Below, piece by piece: positions 56,458 through 64,000 of a stretch of 64,000 nt of DNA; within the stretch, counting starts at the first letter, position 1, and each line of letters opens with the position of its first letter. Made by a program: the position numbers and the translations under genes. The notes under the pieces are model-generated. The model saw only the letters and a program-made list of their open reading frames with translations. It did not search any database and was not told where the DNA came from. The stretch is from Haloactinospora alba. Lineage in GTDB: Bacteria > Actinomycetota > Actinomycetes > Streptosporangiales > Streptosporangiaceae. The DNA is taken from assembly GCF_006717075.1 (NCBI RefSeq), contig NZ_VFQC01000001.1, forward strand, positions 310,001-374,000. Reading direction: 5' to 3'.

Positions 56458-56580
56458 GGTATTAAAGGGTGCGCGCGCCAATACACGCCGCGTAGCGGGT
56501 GTGTCCGCCTCAGGACGCCATCCACCGGGTCCCGAGGCGGAGCAGTCCCGCCACACGTCCGTTCCCCAGGGAGGAACCGG

Positions 56581-57498
56581 GTGAGTGTCGAACCGCAGCG
56601 CGACGGGACCCGGGTGTTCGAGACCCACCGGCGCCTGCTGTTCAGCGTCTCCTACAACATGCTGGGGACCGTGGAGGACGCCGAGGACTGCGTGCAGGAG
56701 GCGTGGATCCGGTGGGCGCGCCAGGACCGCTCCGGTGTCACCCATCCGAAGAGCTACCTGGTGAGAATCGTCACCAACGTCGCGCTGAACACGCTGCGCG
56801 CCCAGCGCAACCGCCGCGAGTCCTACGTCGGGCCGTGGCTGCCCGAACCCCTGGTCACCGCCCCGGACGCCGCCGAGCGCGTGGAGCGCGACGAGACGGT
56901 CTCCTACGCCGTGCTCGTGCTGCTGGAGAACCTCGCCCCCGTCGAGCGAGCCGTCTTCGTCCTGCGTGAGGTACTCGACCTGCCCTAAGACGAGGTCGCC
57001 CGCACGGTGGACCGTACCGAGGCGGGAGCGCGCCAGCTGGCCCACCGGGCCCGGCAGCGGCTCGCCCGCGCCGACGGGCAGCGCGGCGGTGTCAGCGGGG
57101 CCGACCCCGCCACCCACGCCCGTCTCACCGAGGCGTTCGCCGCCGCCTACGCGCGCGGGGACGTGGAGACGTTGCGGAGGATCCTGGCGGAGGACGCGGT
57201 GACCGTCAACGACGGCGGCGGCAGGGCGTCTGCGGCCCGCAACCCGGTCTACGGCGCGGACCGGAGCGCACGGTTCCTCGCCGGGATCGCGACGCGTTTC
57301 CCCGTGGCCCGACTCGAGCGCACCGAGTTCAACGGGGCCCCGGGTGTGCTCGCCATCGGAACGGACGGCGGGGTGCGGTCCGCCGCCGTCGCGCACGTCT
57401 CCGGCGGGCGCGTCCGGCGGCTCTACATGGTCCGCACCCCGGACAAGCTCTCCACTCTCCGGGCGCGGGGCGCGGCGGCGGACCCGGGACGGCGCTGA
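56581..57498 (+). pseudogene. ECF41-type sigma factor interrupted by an in-frame TAA
   Basis: One 306-codon frame from GTG 56581 (GGGAGGA upstream) to 57498 is cut by TAA at 56986-56988. Before it lies sigma-2 (HRRLLFSVSYNMLGTVEDAEDCVQEAWIRW) and the linker WLPEP motif (GPWLPEPL) unique to ECF41. The stop falls in region 4, where relatives read DLPYDEVA; the Tyr codon became TAA. After it come the region-4 helix (GARQLAHRARQRL) and the SnoaL-like C-terminal domain with DGGG and PDKL motifs that controls ECF41 activity. One base change explains it. Without readthrough only 135 residues form, lacking -35 recognition. Confidence 0.88.
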
Positions 57499-58985: not shown

Positions 58986-59645
58986 ATGAAATCCGCACCG
59001 TCATGTCCCCGCTGTGGGCGCACCGTGCAGGCGCCCAACCTGTGGTCGAGCGCGTGGCAGTGCCACGTGCACGGGAACGTCGCGCCCCTGCAACGGGCGC
59101 GTCCGCCGGACGAGACCTCGCTGGCGCTGGTACTCGACCGGGCCCAGGTCCCGGTGTGGATCCCGTGGCCGCTTCCGGCCGGATGGGTCGTCACCGGATT
59201 CGCCGACGCCGGCGACGAGCGGAGCGGGGCACTGGCCGTCACCGTGGCACTGTCCGGACCCGCCCCCACCGGCGGGGTCGGCGAGCTGACGCTGGTGGCC
59301 GAGGATCCCGGCATCGGCCTGGGTGCGCGCATGGCGGGTCTCGTGGGGCCCGACCCGGGGGTGGGCTTCGACTCCGGGGGAGTGGACAGCAAACTCCGGT
59401 TCGACGGGCACGACATCGCGTTGTGGCGCGTCGGCACGGACAAGGACCGTGCCGTCTACGCCGGGGAGGCGCTGGCGAGCTGGCTGTGGCTGGTGTTCTC
59501 CCCCGCTGACGCCGGCATGCTGATGGGGGAGGTCTCCGCGCTGCGCGACCTGCGGGACCGCCAGAACGGCGGTGTCGCACTGGACCCGCCGTTCGGCGCC
59601 CCCTCCCCGTTCCTCACCTCCGTGCTGGAACCGCCGCCTTCCTGA
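58986..59645 (+). CDS. DUF6758 family protein
   Basis: 219 residues. N-terminal CPRCGRTV and the nearby CHVHG look like a small zinc finger (four Cys/His positions in 1-35). A central beta-rich domain and the late SKLRFDGHDIALWRVGTDKDRAVYAGEALASWLWLVFSPADAG segment follow, conserved in streptomycetes next to a PHP-domain gene. The database name phosphotransacetylase seems unsupported. The ATG at 58986 begins directly before the finger. It precedes the PHP gene by 28 bases. Confidence 0.82.
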   Translation: MKSAPSCPRCGRTVQAPNLWSSAWQCHVHGNVAPLQRARPPDETSLALVLDRAQVPVWIPWPLPAGWVVTGFADAGDERSGALAVTVALSGPAPTGGVGELTLVAEDPGIGLGARMAGLVGPDPGVGFDSGGVDSKLRFDGHDIALWRVGTDKDRAVYAGEALASWLWLVFSPADAGMLMGEVSALRDLRDRQNGGVALDPPFGAPSPFLTSVLEPPPS

Positions 59646-59673: not shown

Positions 59674-60564
59674 ATGGCTCTCATCGATCTGCACGCGCAC
59701 AGCAACGTCTCGGACGGGACCGAACCTCCCGCGGCCGTCGTCGGCCGGGCTGCCGCCGCCGGCCTGGACGTGCTCGCCCTCACCGACCACGACACCGTGG
59801 CCGGATGGGAGGAGGCCGTCTCCCACCTTCCCCCCGGCCTCACCCTCGTCCCCGGGATGGAACTGTCGTGCGCCTCCCGCGACGCGAGCGTCCACCTGCT
59901 GGCCTACCTGTTCGACCCCGAACACCCCGAACTCGCCGCCGAACTGCGGCATGTCCGCGCCGACCGGGTCATCCGGGCCGAGACCATGGTCCGGCGCCTG
60001 CGCGAGGAGGGTGTCGACGTGGCATGGCGGCGGGTGCGTGACATCGCGGCCGCCGACGGGCAGCGGGACCGGCCCCCGGAAGAGGAGGGGAACGCGGTGG
60101 GGAGGCCGCACGTCGCCCGCGCCATCGTCGAGGCCGGGGCGGCCAGCGACGTCCAGGACGCGTTCGACCGGTGGATCGGGGCCGGGTGTGTGGCCCACGT
60201 CGACCGCTACACACTGGACCCGGTGCGCGCGGTCACTCTCGTACGGGCGGCTGGCGGGGTGTGCTCCCTCGCCCATCCGGCACGGGCAGAGAACAGCGAC
60301 ACCGGAGCCGTTCCCGAACCCCTGGTGGAACGCATGGCACACGCCGGACTCGGCGGGATCGAGGCCGACCACCCCTCCCACGACGACGCGGAGACCACCC
60401 ACTGGCGCGGTGTCGCGCGCCGGCTCGGGTTGGCGATAACGGGCTCCAGCGACGACCATGGTGAGCTGACCGGGCACCGGCTCGGTTCCCGCGTGACAGA
60501 TCCCGCGGAGTTCGCCCAGCTGACCGGGCCGGCCACCGGAACGCGGCCGGTCACCGGCGGATGA
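59674..60564 (+). CDS. PHP-domain phosphoesterase
   Basis: 296 residues. The metal-binding residues of the PHP fold are visible: DLHAHSNVSDG (motif I), LTDHDTVAGW (motif II), PGMELSC, a VCSLAHPAR His, and SSDDHG at the C-terminal end. Stand-alone members hydrolyse phosphate esters or nucleotides such as 3',5'-bisphosphates and RNA ends; the substrate is unproven. The start ATG gives the canonical MALIDLHAHS. Confidence 0.93.
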   Translation: MALIDLHAHSNVSDGTEPPAAVVGRAAAAGLDVLALTDHDTVAGWEEAVSHLPPGLTLVPGMELSCASRDASVHLLAYLFDPEHPELAAELRHVRADRVIRAETMVRRLREEGVDVAWRRVRDIAAADGQRDRPPEEEGNAVGRPHVARAIVEAGAASDVQDAFDRWIGAGCVAHVDRYTLDPVRAVTLVRAAGGVCSLAHPARAENSDTGAVPEPLVERMAHAGLGGIEADHPSHDDAETTHWRGVARRLGLAITGSSDDHGELTGHRLGSRVTDPAEFAQLTGPATGTRPVTGG

Positions 60565-60714
60565 GCGCCCCGCTCGCCTCCCGGCGGTGGGGACGGCGGG
60601 CTCGTTAACCGGGGACTTAACACAGCGGTGGCAGCATCGGCAGGGACCGCGTGCCCGAACGACGGTTACGGGCACGCACACGCAGAGTTCGGACGCGAAG
60701 CGAAGGGTCGGCAC

Positions 60715-61593
60715 GTGTTCTGGAAACGGAAAGACAAGAGGAAGAGCGACGGTGAGGCCGGAGGCTCGGCGGCCGCGACGGCCGACCCACCGCAGGGGCA
60801 CACACCGGGCGACTCGGACGACACCCCGGAGGCGGAGGCCGGCGCGGACGACGCCACCGGGGAAACCTCCAAAACCGGCACCGGTGAGGACGCCGACGCG
60901 GCCGGCGACACCGACGCGGCGCAGGACCCCCAGGACGCGGAAGCGGGCACGGGCCGGGCCGACAGCGACGGCATCCAGCGGGTCACCACCGACGGAGTGC
61001 TCCGCCTGGACAACGTGGAGCACGACACCTCCAGCCACACGTGGATCGTGGAGGCGGACGACGACGGTGTCCTGGTGATCGACCCGGCACACGACTCCCA
61101 GGCCATCCTGGACGCGGTGGGAGACCGGGAGATCTACCTCGTGGCATGCACGAACGGGTACAACACCCATATCTCCGCCGCCGTGGAGGTCGCCGAGCGC
61201 GACGACGCCCCGATCGCCCTGCACCGCCGGGAGCTGCGGGCGTGGCGCCGCACGCACGGCGCCGAGTACCGGCCCGACCACGAGATCGAGGGCGGGGGGT
61301 CGTTCACCGTCGGGGACCTGGAGGTGGACATCCTGCCCGTTCCCGGTACCTCGGCCGGGAGCGTCGCCTACTACGTCCCGGAGCGCGGTGCCGTTTTCAG
61401 TGGTGACACCCTCCGGGCCGGGGAGCCGGGAACCGTGGGAGGGGGGTACCTGGACTACACCGGCCAGCTCTCCTCGATCGGCGAGGTCCTGCTGACCCTG
61501 CCGCCCGACACCCGGGTGCTGCCGGACAACGGTCCGGAGACGACGGTGGAGGCCGAGACGCGGAACTTCGACGCGTGGGTGTCGCCGGGGTGA
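60715..61593 (+). CDS. Metallo-beta-lactamase-fold protein lacking most metal ligands
   Basis: 292 residues from GTG 60715 (AAGGG upstream). Residues 10-85 are a disordered acidic Asp/Ala/Thr/Glu stretch. The rest follows the MBL hydrolase fold of glyoxalase-II-like actinobacterial proteins, but the ligands are gone: HxHxDH reads TNGYNTH (146-152), the PGHS histidine is Thr (PGTS, 210-213), and the GHG histidine near the end is DNG (271-273). Only the Asp of SGDT (229-232) and one His remain. It is probably a pseudoenzyme with a binding role. It lies between the PHP gene and a facing hydrolase. Confidence 0.85.
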   Translation: MFWKRKDKRKSDGEAGGSAAATADPPQGHTPGDSDDTPEAEAGADDATGETSKTGTGEDADAAGDTDAAQDPQDAEAGTGRADSDGIQRVTTDGVLRLDNVEHDTSSHTWIVEADDDGVLVIDPAHDSQAILDAVGDREIYLVACTNGYNTHISAAVEVAERDDAPIALHRRELRAWRRTHGAEYRPDHEIEGGGSFTVGDLEVDILPVPGTSAGSVAYYVPERGAVFSGDTLRAGEPGTVGGGYLDYTGQLSSIGEVLLTLPPDTRVLPDNGPETTVEAETRNFDAWVSPG

Positions 61594-61644
61594 GCGTTCC
61601 CGCGGTCGCCGCTGCGGCGTCCCGGGGCTCGTGCTCCCGGCGGG

Positions 61645-62529
61645 TCAGACCTCCCGCTCCGGCGCCTCCGCCCGGTTCCAGAACTCGTTCAGCGCGCCGG
61701 CGGTGGTCTCCGGAGCCTCGACGTTGGGGGAGTGGGCCGCGCCGGGGATGACGACGCGGTCGGCACTGAGGCGCTGGGCCATGGTGGCCTGCACCTCCGG
61801 GGGCCAGGTCGTGTCGTTCTCGCCGTAGAGCACCAGCTTCGGAATCTCCACAGCGGCCAGTTCGGCGGTGCGGTCCGGGGCGGAGAGGATCTCCGTGCCC
61901 ATGCCCGCCAGTCCCGCCGGGTCGTTGGCCAGCATCCGGGTGCGCAGGAAGCGGTACACCTCGTCGGGAACACCGCTCTCCCGAGTGGGGCCGTCGAGGT
62001 TGCGCTCCCAGAGCTCCGCGAGACGCTCCCGGGTGGGATCCGTGCCCAGCGCGGTCACGAGGTTGCGCGCGTCGGCCGCGCGCTCCCCGTCCACCCGGGC
62101 GGGACCGGAGCTCATGGCGGCGTAGGACAGCAGCTTCGCCTGCCCCCCGAGTACGGTCTCCCGCGCGACGAGGCCGCCGAAGGAGTGCCCCAGCAGGTGG
62201 AGGGGGCCGTGCTCGAGGGCCTCGGTCAGCGCGGTCACCGCCTCGCCCAGTCCCCGCAGGGTGTAGCCGTCGGCGTGGCCGAACCCGGGCGACTCGTACT
62301 GCCCGGGCATGTCGATGGCGACCACTGTGCGGCCGGCGTGGGCCAGCGTCTGCAACACCGCGATGAAGTCCTCCTTGCTGCCGGTGTAGCCCGGCACGAG
62401 GAGGGCGGGTTGCAGTTCGCAGCTGCCCACCGTTGGCACCGCCCACAGCGCGGCGACGGTGCCGAGTTCCGTGGGAATGTCCCTACGCCGCACACCGGGC
62501 GGCAGTTCCAGAAACCGTGGTGTACTCAC
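61645..62529 (-). CDS. Alpha/beta hydrolase
   Basis: 294 residues. The oxyanion strand PALLVPGYTGS, the nucleophile elbow GHSFGG, the acid strand LVLYGENDTTWP and the final His in PGAAHSPNVEAP make a complete triad. A helical lid separates them. It resembles esterase or hydrolase members of the haloalkane dehalogenase-like group; substrate unknown. It shares the neighbourhood of the DEAD helicase but is not obviously in one operon. GTG start at 62529. Confidence 0.9.
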   Translation of the reverse strand: MSTPRFLELPPGVRRRDIPTELGTVAALWAVPTVGSCELQPALLVPGYTGSKEDFIAVLQTLAHAGRTVVAIDMPGQYESPGFGHADGYTLRGLGEAVTALTEALEHGPLHLLGHSFGGLVARETVLGGQAKLLSYAAMSSGPARVDGERAADARNLVTALGTDPTRERLAELWERNLDGPTRESGVPDEVYRFLRTRMLANDPAGLAGMGTEILSAPDRTAELAAVEIPKLVLYGENDTTWPPEVQATMAQRLSADRVVIPGAAHSPNVEAPETTAGALNEFWNRAEAPEREV

Positions 62530-62627: not shown

Positions 62628-64000
62628 TCAGTCCTGGCGCTTGTTGCGCACGTCGACCCCGTTGCGGGTACGGCGCCTCCGCCGGCGCCGGGACGGGGCG
62701 GCCTCGGAGTCCCCACTGGTGGACTGGCGCTCCGTTCCCGAGGAGCCGCTCGGTGCGGACTCGGAGCCGGCCGTCTTCTTCCGGGAGGAACGCCGCCGGT
62801 TGCGGGAACGTCCCTGGCCGCGCCCGGAGTGCTCCTCCCGGCCGGTTCGGGTCCCGCCTTCGCTCCGCTGGCCTCCGGTCTCCCCGATGTCCTCCACCTC
62901 TTCGGCCTCCAGACCGGCCCGGGCGCGCTGCTCCTTGGCGAGCTTGCCCTTGGTTCCGGCCGGGATACCGAGCGCCTCGAAGAAGTGAGCCGAGGTCGAG
63001 TAGGTCTCCGGCGGTTCGGAGAGCGGAAGGTCGAGCGCGGTGTTGATCAGCTTCCACCGGGCGATCTCCTCCCAGTCGACGAACGTCACCGCGGTGCCGG
63101 AACGCCCCGCCCGGCCGGTGCGGCCGGTGCGGTGGGTGTAGGTTTTCTCGTCCTCGGGGCACTCGTAGTTGATCACGTGGGTGACGTCGTCCACGTCCAG
63201 CCCTCGGGCGGCCACGTCGGTGGCGATCAGCACGTCGATCTTGCCGTTGCGGAACGCGCGCAGGGCGCGTTCCCGCTGCCCCTGCCCCAGGTCCCCGTGG
63301 ACGGCGGCGGCGGCGAAACCGCGCCGTTTCATCTCGGCGGCGACCCTGTCACAGGTGCGTTTGGTCTGGCAGAACACCATGCTCAGCCCCCGGCCCTCAG
63401 CCTGCAGGAGGCGAGCGAGCATCTCCTGCCTGTCCATCGGGTGGGTGCGGAAGGCGTGGTGCTCGACGTGGTCGGTGGCGATCTGCTCGTTGCCGTCGTC
63501 CTCCCCGGCACGCACGTGGGTGGGCCGGTTGAGGTAGTTGCGGGACAGGGAGACGATCTCGCTCGGCATGGTCGCCGAGAAGAGCATCCCCTGGCGCCGT
63601 TCGGGAAGCTTGGTCAGGATGCGCTCGATGTCGGGAAGGAAACCCAGGTCGAGCATCTTGTCGGCCTCGTCCAGGACGATGGCGCTGACGCCGGAGAGGT
63701 CGAGGTGGTTCTGCTTCTCGAGGTCGAGCAGGCGTCCGGGGGTGCCCACGACGATGTCGGCACCGCTGTGCAGCCCCTCGATCTGGGGTTCGTAGGACCG
63801 TCCGCCGTACACCGTGAGGAGCCGGCTCCCGGTACGCTTCCCCGCCGTCTCGAGGTCGGCCGCCACCTGGATGGCGAGCTCCCGGGCGGGAACGACGACC
63901 AGGGCCCGGGGGCGCTTCGGCTCACCCGGTGCGCTCTGCACCCACTGCAGCAGCGGGATGCCGAACGCGAAGGTCTTGCCCGTACCAGTGCGCGCCTGCC
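62628..64000 (-). CDS. DEAD-box RNA helicase, N-terminus beyond the window
   Basis: At least 457 residues; the frame is open to the right edge, so the start is outside. Motifs: AxTGxGKT (ARTGTGKT) at the edge, PARELA, TPGRLLD, DEAD with VLDEADKM, SAT (LFSATMP), and helicase C motifs VFCQTKRT, ATDVAARGLDV and HRTGRTGRAG. A basic, Ser/Arg-rich C-terminal tail of about 110 residues (RSRNRRRSSRKK, SRRRRRRRRTRNG) fits an RNA-binding, possibly cold-shock or ribosome-linked role. Confidence 0.95.
   Translation of the reverse strand, partial: QARTGTGKTFAFGIPLLQWVQSAPGEPKRPRALVVVPARELAIQVAADLETAGKRTGSRLLTVYGGRSYEPQIEGLHSGADIVVGTPGRLLDLEKQNHLDLSGVSAIVLDEADKMLDLGFLPDIERILTKLPERRQGMLFSATMPSEIVSLSRNYLNRPTHVRAGEDDGNEQIATDHVEHHAFRTHPMDRQEMLARLLQAEGRGLSMVFCQTKRTCDRVAAEMKRRGFAAAAVHGDLGQGQRERALRAFRNGKIDVLIATDVAARGLDVDDVTHVINYECPEDEKTYTHRTGRTGRAGRSGTAVTFVDWEEIARWKLINTALDLPLSEPPETYSTSAHFFEALGIPAGTKGKLAKEQRARAGLEAEEVEDIGETGGQRSEGGTRTGREEHSGRGQGRSRNRRRSSRKKTAGSESAPSGSSGTERQSTSGDSEAAPSRRRRRRRTRNGVDVRNKRQD

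Follow-up and report, generated by a model that had tools for sequence, protein, structure and literature searches.

Loss of the metal site in an MBL-fold protein of Haloactinospora alba and its relatives: a probable pseudoenzyme with a possible binding or adaptor role

Introduction

A gene of Haloactinospora alba encodes a protein that has the fold of a metal-dependent hydrolase and lacks most of the residues expected to bind the metal, which raises the question of what such a protein is kept for. The gene lies in a stretch of 64,000 nucleotides (RefSeq assembly GCF_006717075.1, contig NZ_VFQC01000001.1, positions 310,001 to 374,000 of the forward strand); we call it the window and count all coordinates from its first letter.

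MBL-fold proteins without metal are already known. The eukaryotic INTS9/CPSF100 proteins of the MBL/β-CASP type form pairs with the active INTS11/CPSF73. INTS9 is described as a pseudoenzyme, its active site being disintegrated and devoid of the key metal-binding residues (PMC7980224). It thus resembles the protein studied here in having lost its metal-binding residues while being kept for another role; the differences are the eukaryotic origin, the β-CASP domain and the active relative alongside. Among bacteria, the passages of PMC4390876 on the cyanobacterial flavodiiron proteins Flv1 and Flv2 assign to these MBL-type domains without the canonical metal ligands. They share this lack with the window protein but are multi-domain flavoproteins, the active relatives of which contain iron. 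A keyword search of a library of open-access papers found no paper on the family described below, the genes of which are linked to a DUF6758 gene.

Results

The gene, its start and its linker

The gene is an intact open reading frame on the forward strand, running from a GTG start codon at 60715 to a stop that ends at 61593 and encoding 292 residues. The start is preceded by a ribosome-binding-site-like sequence, GAAGGG (60702-60707, +), and a similar sequence is found upstream in 37 rows of relatives with the same FWK-type start. The protein begins with a conserved basic-aromatic segment (VFWKRKDKRK, 60715-60744, +, with GTG as start codon), which is typical of the relatives in the clade called B4 below; both the GTG codon and the (V)FW(K)xKxKK start are present in 37 of the 38 relatives' rows read, with L135 as the exception. 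It is followed by an acidic linker (60745-60966, +) composed of 26% Asp plus Glu, 3% Lys plus Arg and no hydrophobic residues. The corresponding linkers of relatives are 44 to 181 residues long and contain 25-48% Asp plus Glu. In an AlphaFold2 model built on 52 sequences, pLDDT is below 50 for residues 1-24, 27-37 and 39-81, that is for nearly all of the first 81 residues. Both the intact frame and the acidic disordered start claimed by the original prediction were thus recovered. A promoter and terminator scan of 60400-61750 found none, about none being expected. A match of the N-terminal part to PF15644 was disregarded, as it scored 16.7 bits against a cut-off of 24.1 and overlaps with low-complexity sequence.

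Fold and structural relatives

The MBL-fold domain begins at residue 85 (60967-61590, +). Residues 106-268 match Pfam Lactamase_B (PF00753) with an E-value of 9.3e-15 and 55.5 bits (cut-off 22.7), and the predicted model shows the α-β-β-α arrangement of the fold with pLDDT of at least 90 for 199 residues, which is the confident domain prediction that had been proposed as a check on the fold. Comparison with solved structures by VIA-align gave BLEG-1 as the top match (7ev5, Z 26.5, rmsd 2.2, 193 residues aligned), followed by YcbL (2xf4, Z 26.1), GloB from S. aureus (7l0b, Z 25.5) and TTHA1623 (2zwr, Z 24.0). These are glyoxalase II-like single-domain MBL proteins that align over 188-194 residues; at Z scores of 24.0-26.5 such small proteins are the best structural matches. 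They differ from the window protein in sequence (21-30% identity) and in the five ligands that it lacks, and their database entries describe them as hydrolases or MBL proteins (as an apoenzyme in the case of 7l0b). The window protein misses the equivalog cut-off of TIGR03413 (hydroxyacylglutathione hydrolase) with 49.2 bits against 200.8, and so does a canonical paralogue from the same genome (79.3 bits).

The metal site

This canonical paralogue (L002) is 40% identical to the window protein and keeps all seven metal ligands. It belongs to the same fold family and has the same domain length, but it lacks the acidic linker and adjoins a mycothiol-dependent formaldehyde dehydrogenase gene. We refer to the canonical type represented by L002 as group A and to the window type as group B, labels that are specific to this analysis. 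The ligand places, named after what is generally known of MBL-fold proteins, were located in the window protein by alignment to L002. They read N-Y-T-H-T-D-N in the window protein as compared to H-H-D-H-H-D-H in the paralogue. At the place of the HxHxDH motif the window protein has CTNGYNTH (61147-61170, +), with three of the four ligands replaced, and the His of PGH is replaced by Thr in PGTS (61342-61353, +). The bridging Asp (D231) is kept in SGDT (61399-61410, +), and the final GHG has become DNG (61525-61533, +) by a change of His to Asn, at a place that varies among clade members (R, S, Q, T or N). Five of the seven ligands are therefore lost; the two that remain are the SGDT Asp and the His that closes the HxHxDH motif. 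Judged as a glyoxalase II-type dinuclear metallohydrolase, the protein has the bridging Asp of GD but neither HxHxDH nor the His of PGH or of the final GHG. The motifs had been read correctly from the letters of the window, and the original count of four or more lost ligands referred to positions in this one protein; the losses between lineages described below are the stronger finding.

Conservation in clade B4

The same changes recur in related genera. In all 54 distinct rows of clade B4 with the N-Y pattern, the first two His have given way to Asn and Tyr, and the bridging Asp is kept, as is the third His. The Asp of HxHxDH is replaced by Thr, Pro or (once) His, and the His of PGH by Thr (51 rows) or Ser (3 rows). 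The last ligand place drifts: Arg in 28 rows, Ser in 15, Gln in 6, Thr in 4 and Asn in one. The invariant Asn, Tyr, His and Asp next to a drifting last place indicate that the old site is partly fixed and partly free. The pocket of B4 proteins thus contains a largely invariant polar site formed by N147, Y149, H152, T/S212 and D231, and H170 and H181 are also invariant in this clade. Outside the ligand places, R178, G195, Q251, L252, R267, L269 and P270 (and G256 nearly so) are near-invariant in all four clades of group B and differ from the residue usual in group A; as none of them is a ligand, they point to a common function of group B that does not depend on metal.

Of the 210 extracted loci, 209 have a reading frame that spans the whole domain; the only short frame, L205, is of group A. 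A decaying pseudogene is rejected in view of these frames together with a loss that is common to all 54 clade rows; homologues from related genera that retain HxHxDH, which would have spoken for such decay, were not found among them. With an MBL fold in the predicted model, ligands lost and the loss conserved among orthologues, the window protein has the sequence properties expected of a pseudoenzyme. Selection for a non-hydrolytic function, suggested when the protein was first described, gains support from the fixed Asn and Tyr in 54 of 54 rows and from the repeated losses in the wider family. Going by its sequence, the window protein is probably a conserved MBL-fold protein without metal.

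Nei-Gojobori dN/dS values of the MBL domain were 0.45, 0.55 and 0.41 in three distance bins, as compared to 0.18-0.28 for the neighbouring DUF6758, PHP, Mrp and DEAD genes and 0.35-0.45 for the α/β-hydrolase, in a comparison made without L120, L127 and L135. The constraint on the domain thus looks weaker than on most neighbours, its values being above those of the first four genes and about equal to or above those of the hydrolase. The binning, however, used the dS of the domain itself, a choice biased towards a high ratio for this domain. With a GC3 of 0.97, moreover, dS is unreliable, and for both reasons the absolute values mean little. The dN of the domain is close to that of the two upstream neighbours, DUF6758 and PHP, and its dS is lower.

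Ligand patterns and phylogeny of group B

A family-wide search gave a group A or group B match in 196 of 200 genomes, among the matches listed. In group A all seven ligands are kept in 21 of the 22 rows that are readable at all seven places, L057 being the exception. The 128 distinct rows of group B show 32 ligand patterns, in which seven ligands are kept in 2 rows, six in 13, four in 48, three in 9, two in 54 and none in 2. In a tree of 108 rows, calculated with the seven ligand columns excluded and without L205 and near-identical rows (more than 86% alike, with the same ligand pattern), group B is a single clade (100/100) with four parts the order of which is unsettled.

Clade B1 is Thermomonosporaceae-like; L162 keeps all seven ligands and its relatives have N-R-N-I-F-N-Q, N-R-N-I-F-G-S, D-R-G/V-H-H-D-Q or D-L-S-H-H-D-Q. 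Clade B2, from environmental assemblies where named, includes L138 with seven of seven ligands, the others having lost only the Asp of HxHxDH, which is replaced by Gly, Ala, Ser, Arg or Thr. Clade B3 (Streptosporangium, Nonomuraea, Microbispora and others) mostly has H-L-D-H-V/I-K-H, in which Lys stands for the bridging Asp. A model of a B3 protein also folds as an MBL domain (pLDDT of at least 90 for 154 residues), with a tail from residue 213 at pLDDT below 50. Clade B4 comprises Nocardiopsidaceae and near relatives, including the window protein, and has N-Y-T/P-H-T-D-x; its early branches are L135 (N-Y-D-H-A-D-H) and L133 (S-V-D-H-S-D-H). One B4-type record is titled Glycomyces fuscus (L115), with a locus order as in the Nocardiopsis loci, and may be misnamed.

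Three deviations within B3, each in a single row, are useful as living intermediates: L176 (Nonomuraea dietziae), in which the final His is replaced by Gln, L155 (Acrocarpospora pleiomorpha), with Glu rather than Lys at the bridging place, and L139 (Bailinhaonella thermotolerans), with the pattern H-Y-D-H-A-K-H and without the C-terminal motif described below.

Assuming no regain, the best tree implies four losses of the complete ligand set. The number is three if B3 and B4 are sisters, an arrangement that is found in a smaller tree (87/75) and cannot be discarded for the large one (p-AU 0.35). A common first step of the losses in B3 and B4 is plausible, since their early branches, L139 and L135, have the same residues, Tyr and Ala, at two of the ligand places. 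With regain permitted, group B is explained as cheaply by a single loss plus two regains, and the minimum for the whole tree is four changes, one of them in group A; we consider regain of a complete ligand set unlikely.

Motifs at the two ends of the protein

The FWK-type start is present in 55 of 56 distinct B4 rows, L135 being without it. At the other end, a DGT..GI-type C-terminal motif follows a linker of 11-19 residues in 50 of 51 B3 rows, with L139 as the exception. The B4 start and the B3 tail are therefore short conserved motifs carried on variable disordered linkers at opposite ends of the protein, which is a usual build of a contact peptide. A degenerate DNA pattern of the FWK start matched 30 places in the organism's own genome, as compared to 16 for a reversed control. 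With this narrow pattern, no frame of at least 60 residues at these places other than the window gene starts with a comparable basic run, although L253 begins with MFWKR. A general sorting signal found no support.

Genomic context

The gene is preceded by a DUF6758 gene (58986-59645, +; PF20544, E 4.6e-91) and by a gene for a PHP-domain phosphoesterase (59674-60564, +; PF02811), of which the nearest NCBIfam model is 3',5'-nucleoside bisphosphate phosphatase, below its cut-off. Downstream there are two inverted genes, encoding an α/β-hydrolase (61645-62529, -; PF12697) and a DEAD-box helicase (62628-63998, -; assigned by sequence and running off the window). This order is conserved. Eighty named group B loci, chosen by their MBL match and including Nocardiopsis, Streptomonospora, Thermobifida, Allosalinactinospora, Streptosporangium, Nonomuraea, Microbispora and Planotetraspora, have DUF6758 upstream in 79 cases and PHP in 40, and the inverted α/β-hydrolase and DEAD helicase downstream in 76 and 74 cases, respectively. 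L133 lacks DUF6758, L104, L162 and L172 are on short contigs, and L170 is without both downstream genes within 10 kb. No S-(hydroxymethyl)mycothiol dehydrogenase gene was found in any of the 80 loci.

In a separate set also chosen by MBL match, DUF6758 is present at 35 of 40 loci. A less biased count comes from class-level searches, in which, among the matches listed, an MBL match lies within 3 kb of DUF6758 in 21 of 22 genomes of the family; in the remaining one (G055) DUF6758 is on a contig of 3,969 bases. Conversely, 16 of 18 DUF6758 loci from other families showed no MBL match in the stretches of 9-15 kb that were read. Ten of these 16 have the hydrolase; among the rest, some stretches are truncated and some show another gene order. 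The other two loci hold a pair of canonical dehydrogenase and group A genes at the place of group B, in the order DUF6758-dehydrogenase-group A-hydrolase (L210) or DUF6758-PHP-dehydrogenase-group A (L211).

Elsewhere in the window, a sigma-factor-like gene at about 56580-57498 (+), presumably of the SigJ type, has a single in-frame stop at 56986-56988 with the frame open on both sides, which reflects a genuine nonsense mutation or else an error in the sequence.

The canonical paralogue and its relation to group B

L002 is located directly downstream of a gene for S-(hydroxymethyl)mycothiol dehydrogenase, which scores 662.5 bits with TIGR03451 (cut-off 512.9). This is the only match to the dehydrogenase in the genome at an E-value of 1e-120 and lies about 118 kb from the window gene; the dehydrogenase is present in 19 of 22 group A loci. 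According to PMC12914118, the dehydrogenase forms S-formylmycothiol, and hydrolysis of this product then yields formate and mycothiol. From the order of the genes we infer that group A hydrolyses S-formylmycothiol. Two group A copies, L057 (H-H-S-H-Y-D-H) and L058 (all seven ligands kept), lie on a long branch. Their genomes (G039 and G062) gave no dehydrogenase match at an E-value of 1e-120, and none is present in the L057 locus; loss of the partner dehydrogenase may thus leave the canonical enzyme to drift.

In a tree rooted on one long-branched outgroup, group B falls inside group A solely because the group A row L204 branches first (94/83). This tree and the L210 and L211 loci are consistent with a descent of group B from group A.

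Searches of 43 genomes with the group A protein gave, among the matches listed, a full-length match of at least 53% identity in 26. A further genome, G019, the group B copy of which has full ligands, has group A only as a fragment of 86 residues that resembles an end of a contig. The other 16 genomes have group B and no full-length group A among the matches listed; they include two well-assembled genomes that are each 99% complete, G038 (a single contig) and G050, both with group B of the HLDHVKH type. Group B therefore does not need group A.

Full-length group A is absent from 13 of 14 genomes with B2, in which six or seven ligands are kept, as compared to 3 of 29 others (among the matches listed), many of the B2 genomes being incomplete assemblies; the dehydrogenase is present in 13 of these 14. 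Near-complete ligand sets occur in 12 of 15 tree rows without group A versus 2 of 23 with it (Fisher p 1.2e-5 for 38 tree rows). When the comparison is limited to phylogenetically independent pairs, however, the trait follows in 0.8 of 5 on average, a number with which a sign test cannot reach significance, so that there is in effect one contrast. A loss of ligands driven by redundancy with group A therefore remains a suggestion.

Discussion

We interpret the window gene as encoding a conserved MBL-fold pseudoenzyme that now acts as a non-hydrolytic binding or adaptor module and that originated from a metal-dependent thioester hydrolase type, with a probability of roughly 0.58. The ancestor would have been close to the hydrolase encoded beside S-(hydroxymethyl)mycothiol dehydrogenase. 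Homology to this enzyme is evident from the alignments, and the direction of descent and the substrate are deduced from trees and gene order. A copy of the ancestral gene would have settled downstream of DUF6758, where it kept its fold, fixed the residues common to its descendants and lost the metal site in a different way in three or four lineages. In the window lineage the former metal pocket would have been converted into the polar site of N147, Y149, H152, T/S212 and D231. The domain could then serve to bind a partner protein, perhaps with a small ligand in the old pocket, while the basic-aromatic start on its acidic linker, and the tail motif in a sister lineage, could provide second contacts and make the protein an adaptor or tether. 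It is chiefly the short end motifs on disordered linkers in B3 and B4 that suggest an adaptor, a reading that is independent of whether the metal site was lost three or four times. Against it, each end motif is confined to one clade, and L135 and L139 lack them. It is possible, though we would stop short of calling it probable, that the whole orthologue family followed this course, from a mycothiol-thioester hydrolase type to metal-free adaptors by at least three different losses (down to none of seven ligands), with separate contact motifs at opposite ends and with R178, Q251, R267 and other residues fixed.

The invariance of N147, Y149, H152 and D231, with Thr or Ser at 212, would also fit a sensor of small molecules, in which a mycothiol adduct (S-formylmycothiol or a ketone, for example) is bound uncleaved in the old cleft and a signal is passed on by the tail. 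Such a ligand would agree with the homology to the hydrolase type found beside the TIGR03451 dehydrogenase. The pockets of other clades are quite different, for example H-L-D-H-V-K-H and N-R-N-I-F-N-Q, and with pocket residues that change from clade to clade one ligand shared by all of group B is unlikely; we regard a sensor as an unlikely, if still credible, function.

Somewhat more improbable is that the window protein is still an enzyme, in which the two kept ligands together with other residues (for example H170, H181 and Y149) hold one metal, or which performs metal-free chemistry. Judging from residue conservation, a site of other make-up may hold a metal, given the retention of H152 and D231 and the likewise invariant H170 and H181 of the clade; moreover, the B2 proteins, with six of seven ligands (seven in L138), may well be active. 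For the window protein itself, the absence of five of seven ligands, including the first two His and the His of PGH, argues against catalysis, as does the drift of the final place among Arg, Ser, Gln, Thr and Asn in 54 rows, which is unlike a catalytic place.

Pseudoenzymes often pair with active relatives, and group A (in G019 as a fragment only) and group B occur together in 27 of the 43 genomes among the matches listed, so that group B could pair with the group A hydrolase of its own genome and modulate it. This role has little probability in view of the 16 genomes that, among the matches listed, keep group B without full-length group A, G038 and G050 with their HLDHVKH-type proteins among them. 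Finally, a relaxed gene on its way out, the ligands of which fell through redundancy while nothing else was kept, would explain a dN/dS above that of most neighbours and the near-complete ligand sets that accompany absence of group A (0.8 of 5 in tree-independent pairs), but it is very improbable given the frames that stay open across the domain in 209 of 210 loci, the conserved place and start, the many residues invariant in 54 rows and a dN near that of DUF6758 and PHP.

Compared to the metal-less MBL-fold proteins already known, the unusual aspects of this adaptor candidate are that a single family of syntenic orthologues has undergone several different losses, that intermediates are still living and that the end motifs are each restricted to a single clade. 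The graded natural series of one orthologous gene at one place, with 7, 6, 4, 3, 2 and 0 ligands, makes the change from a metalloenzyme to a pseudoenzyme traceable through real intermediates. It also carries a warning for annotation, as group B genes match metallo-hydrolase models, yet many encode proteins without a plausible metal site. Identification of a partner would show why a single-domain bacterial MBL fold that does not cut is kept.
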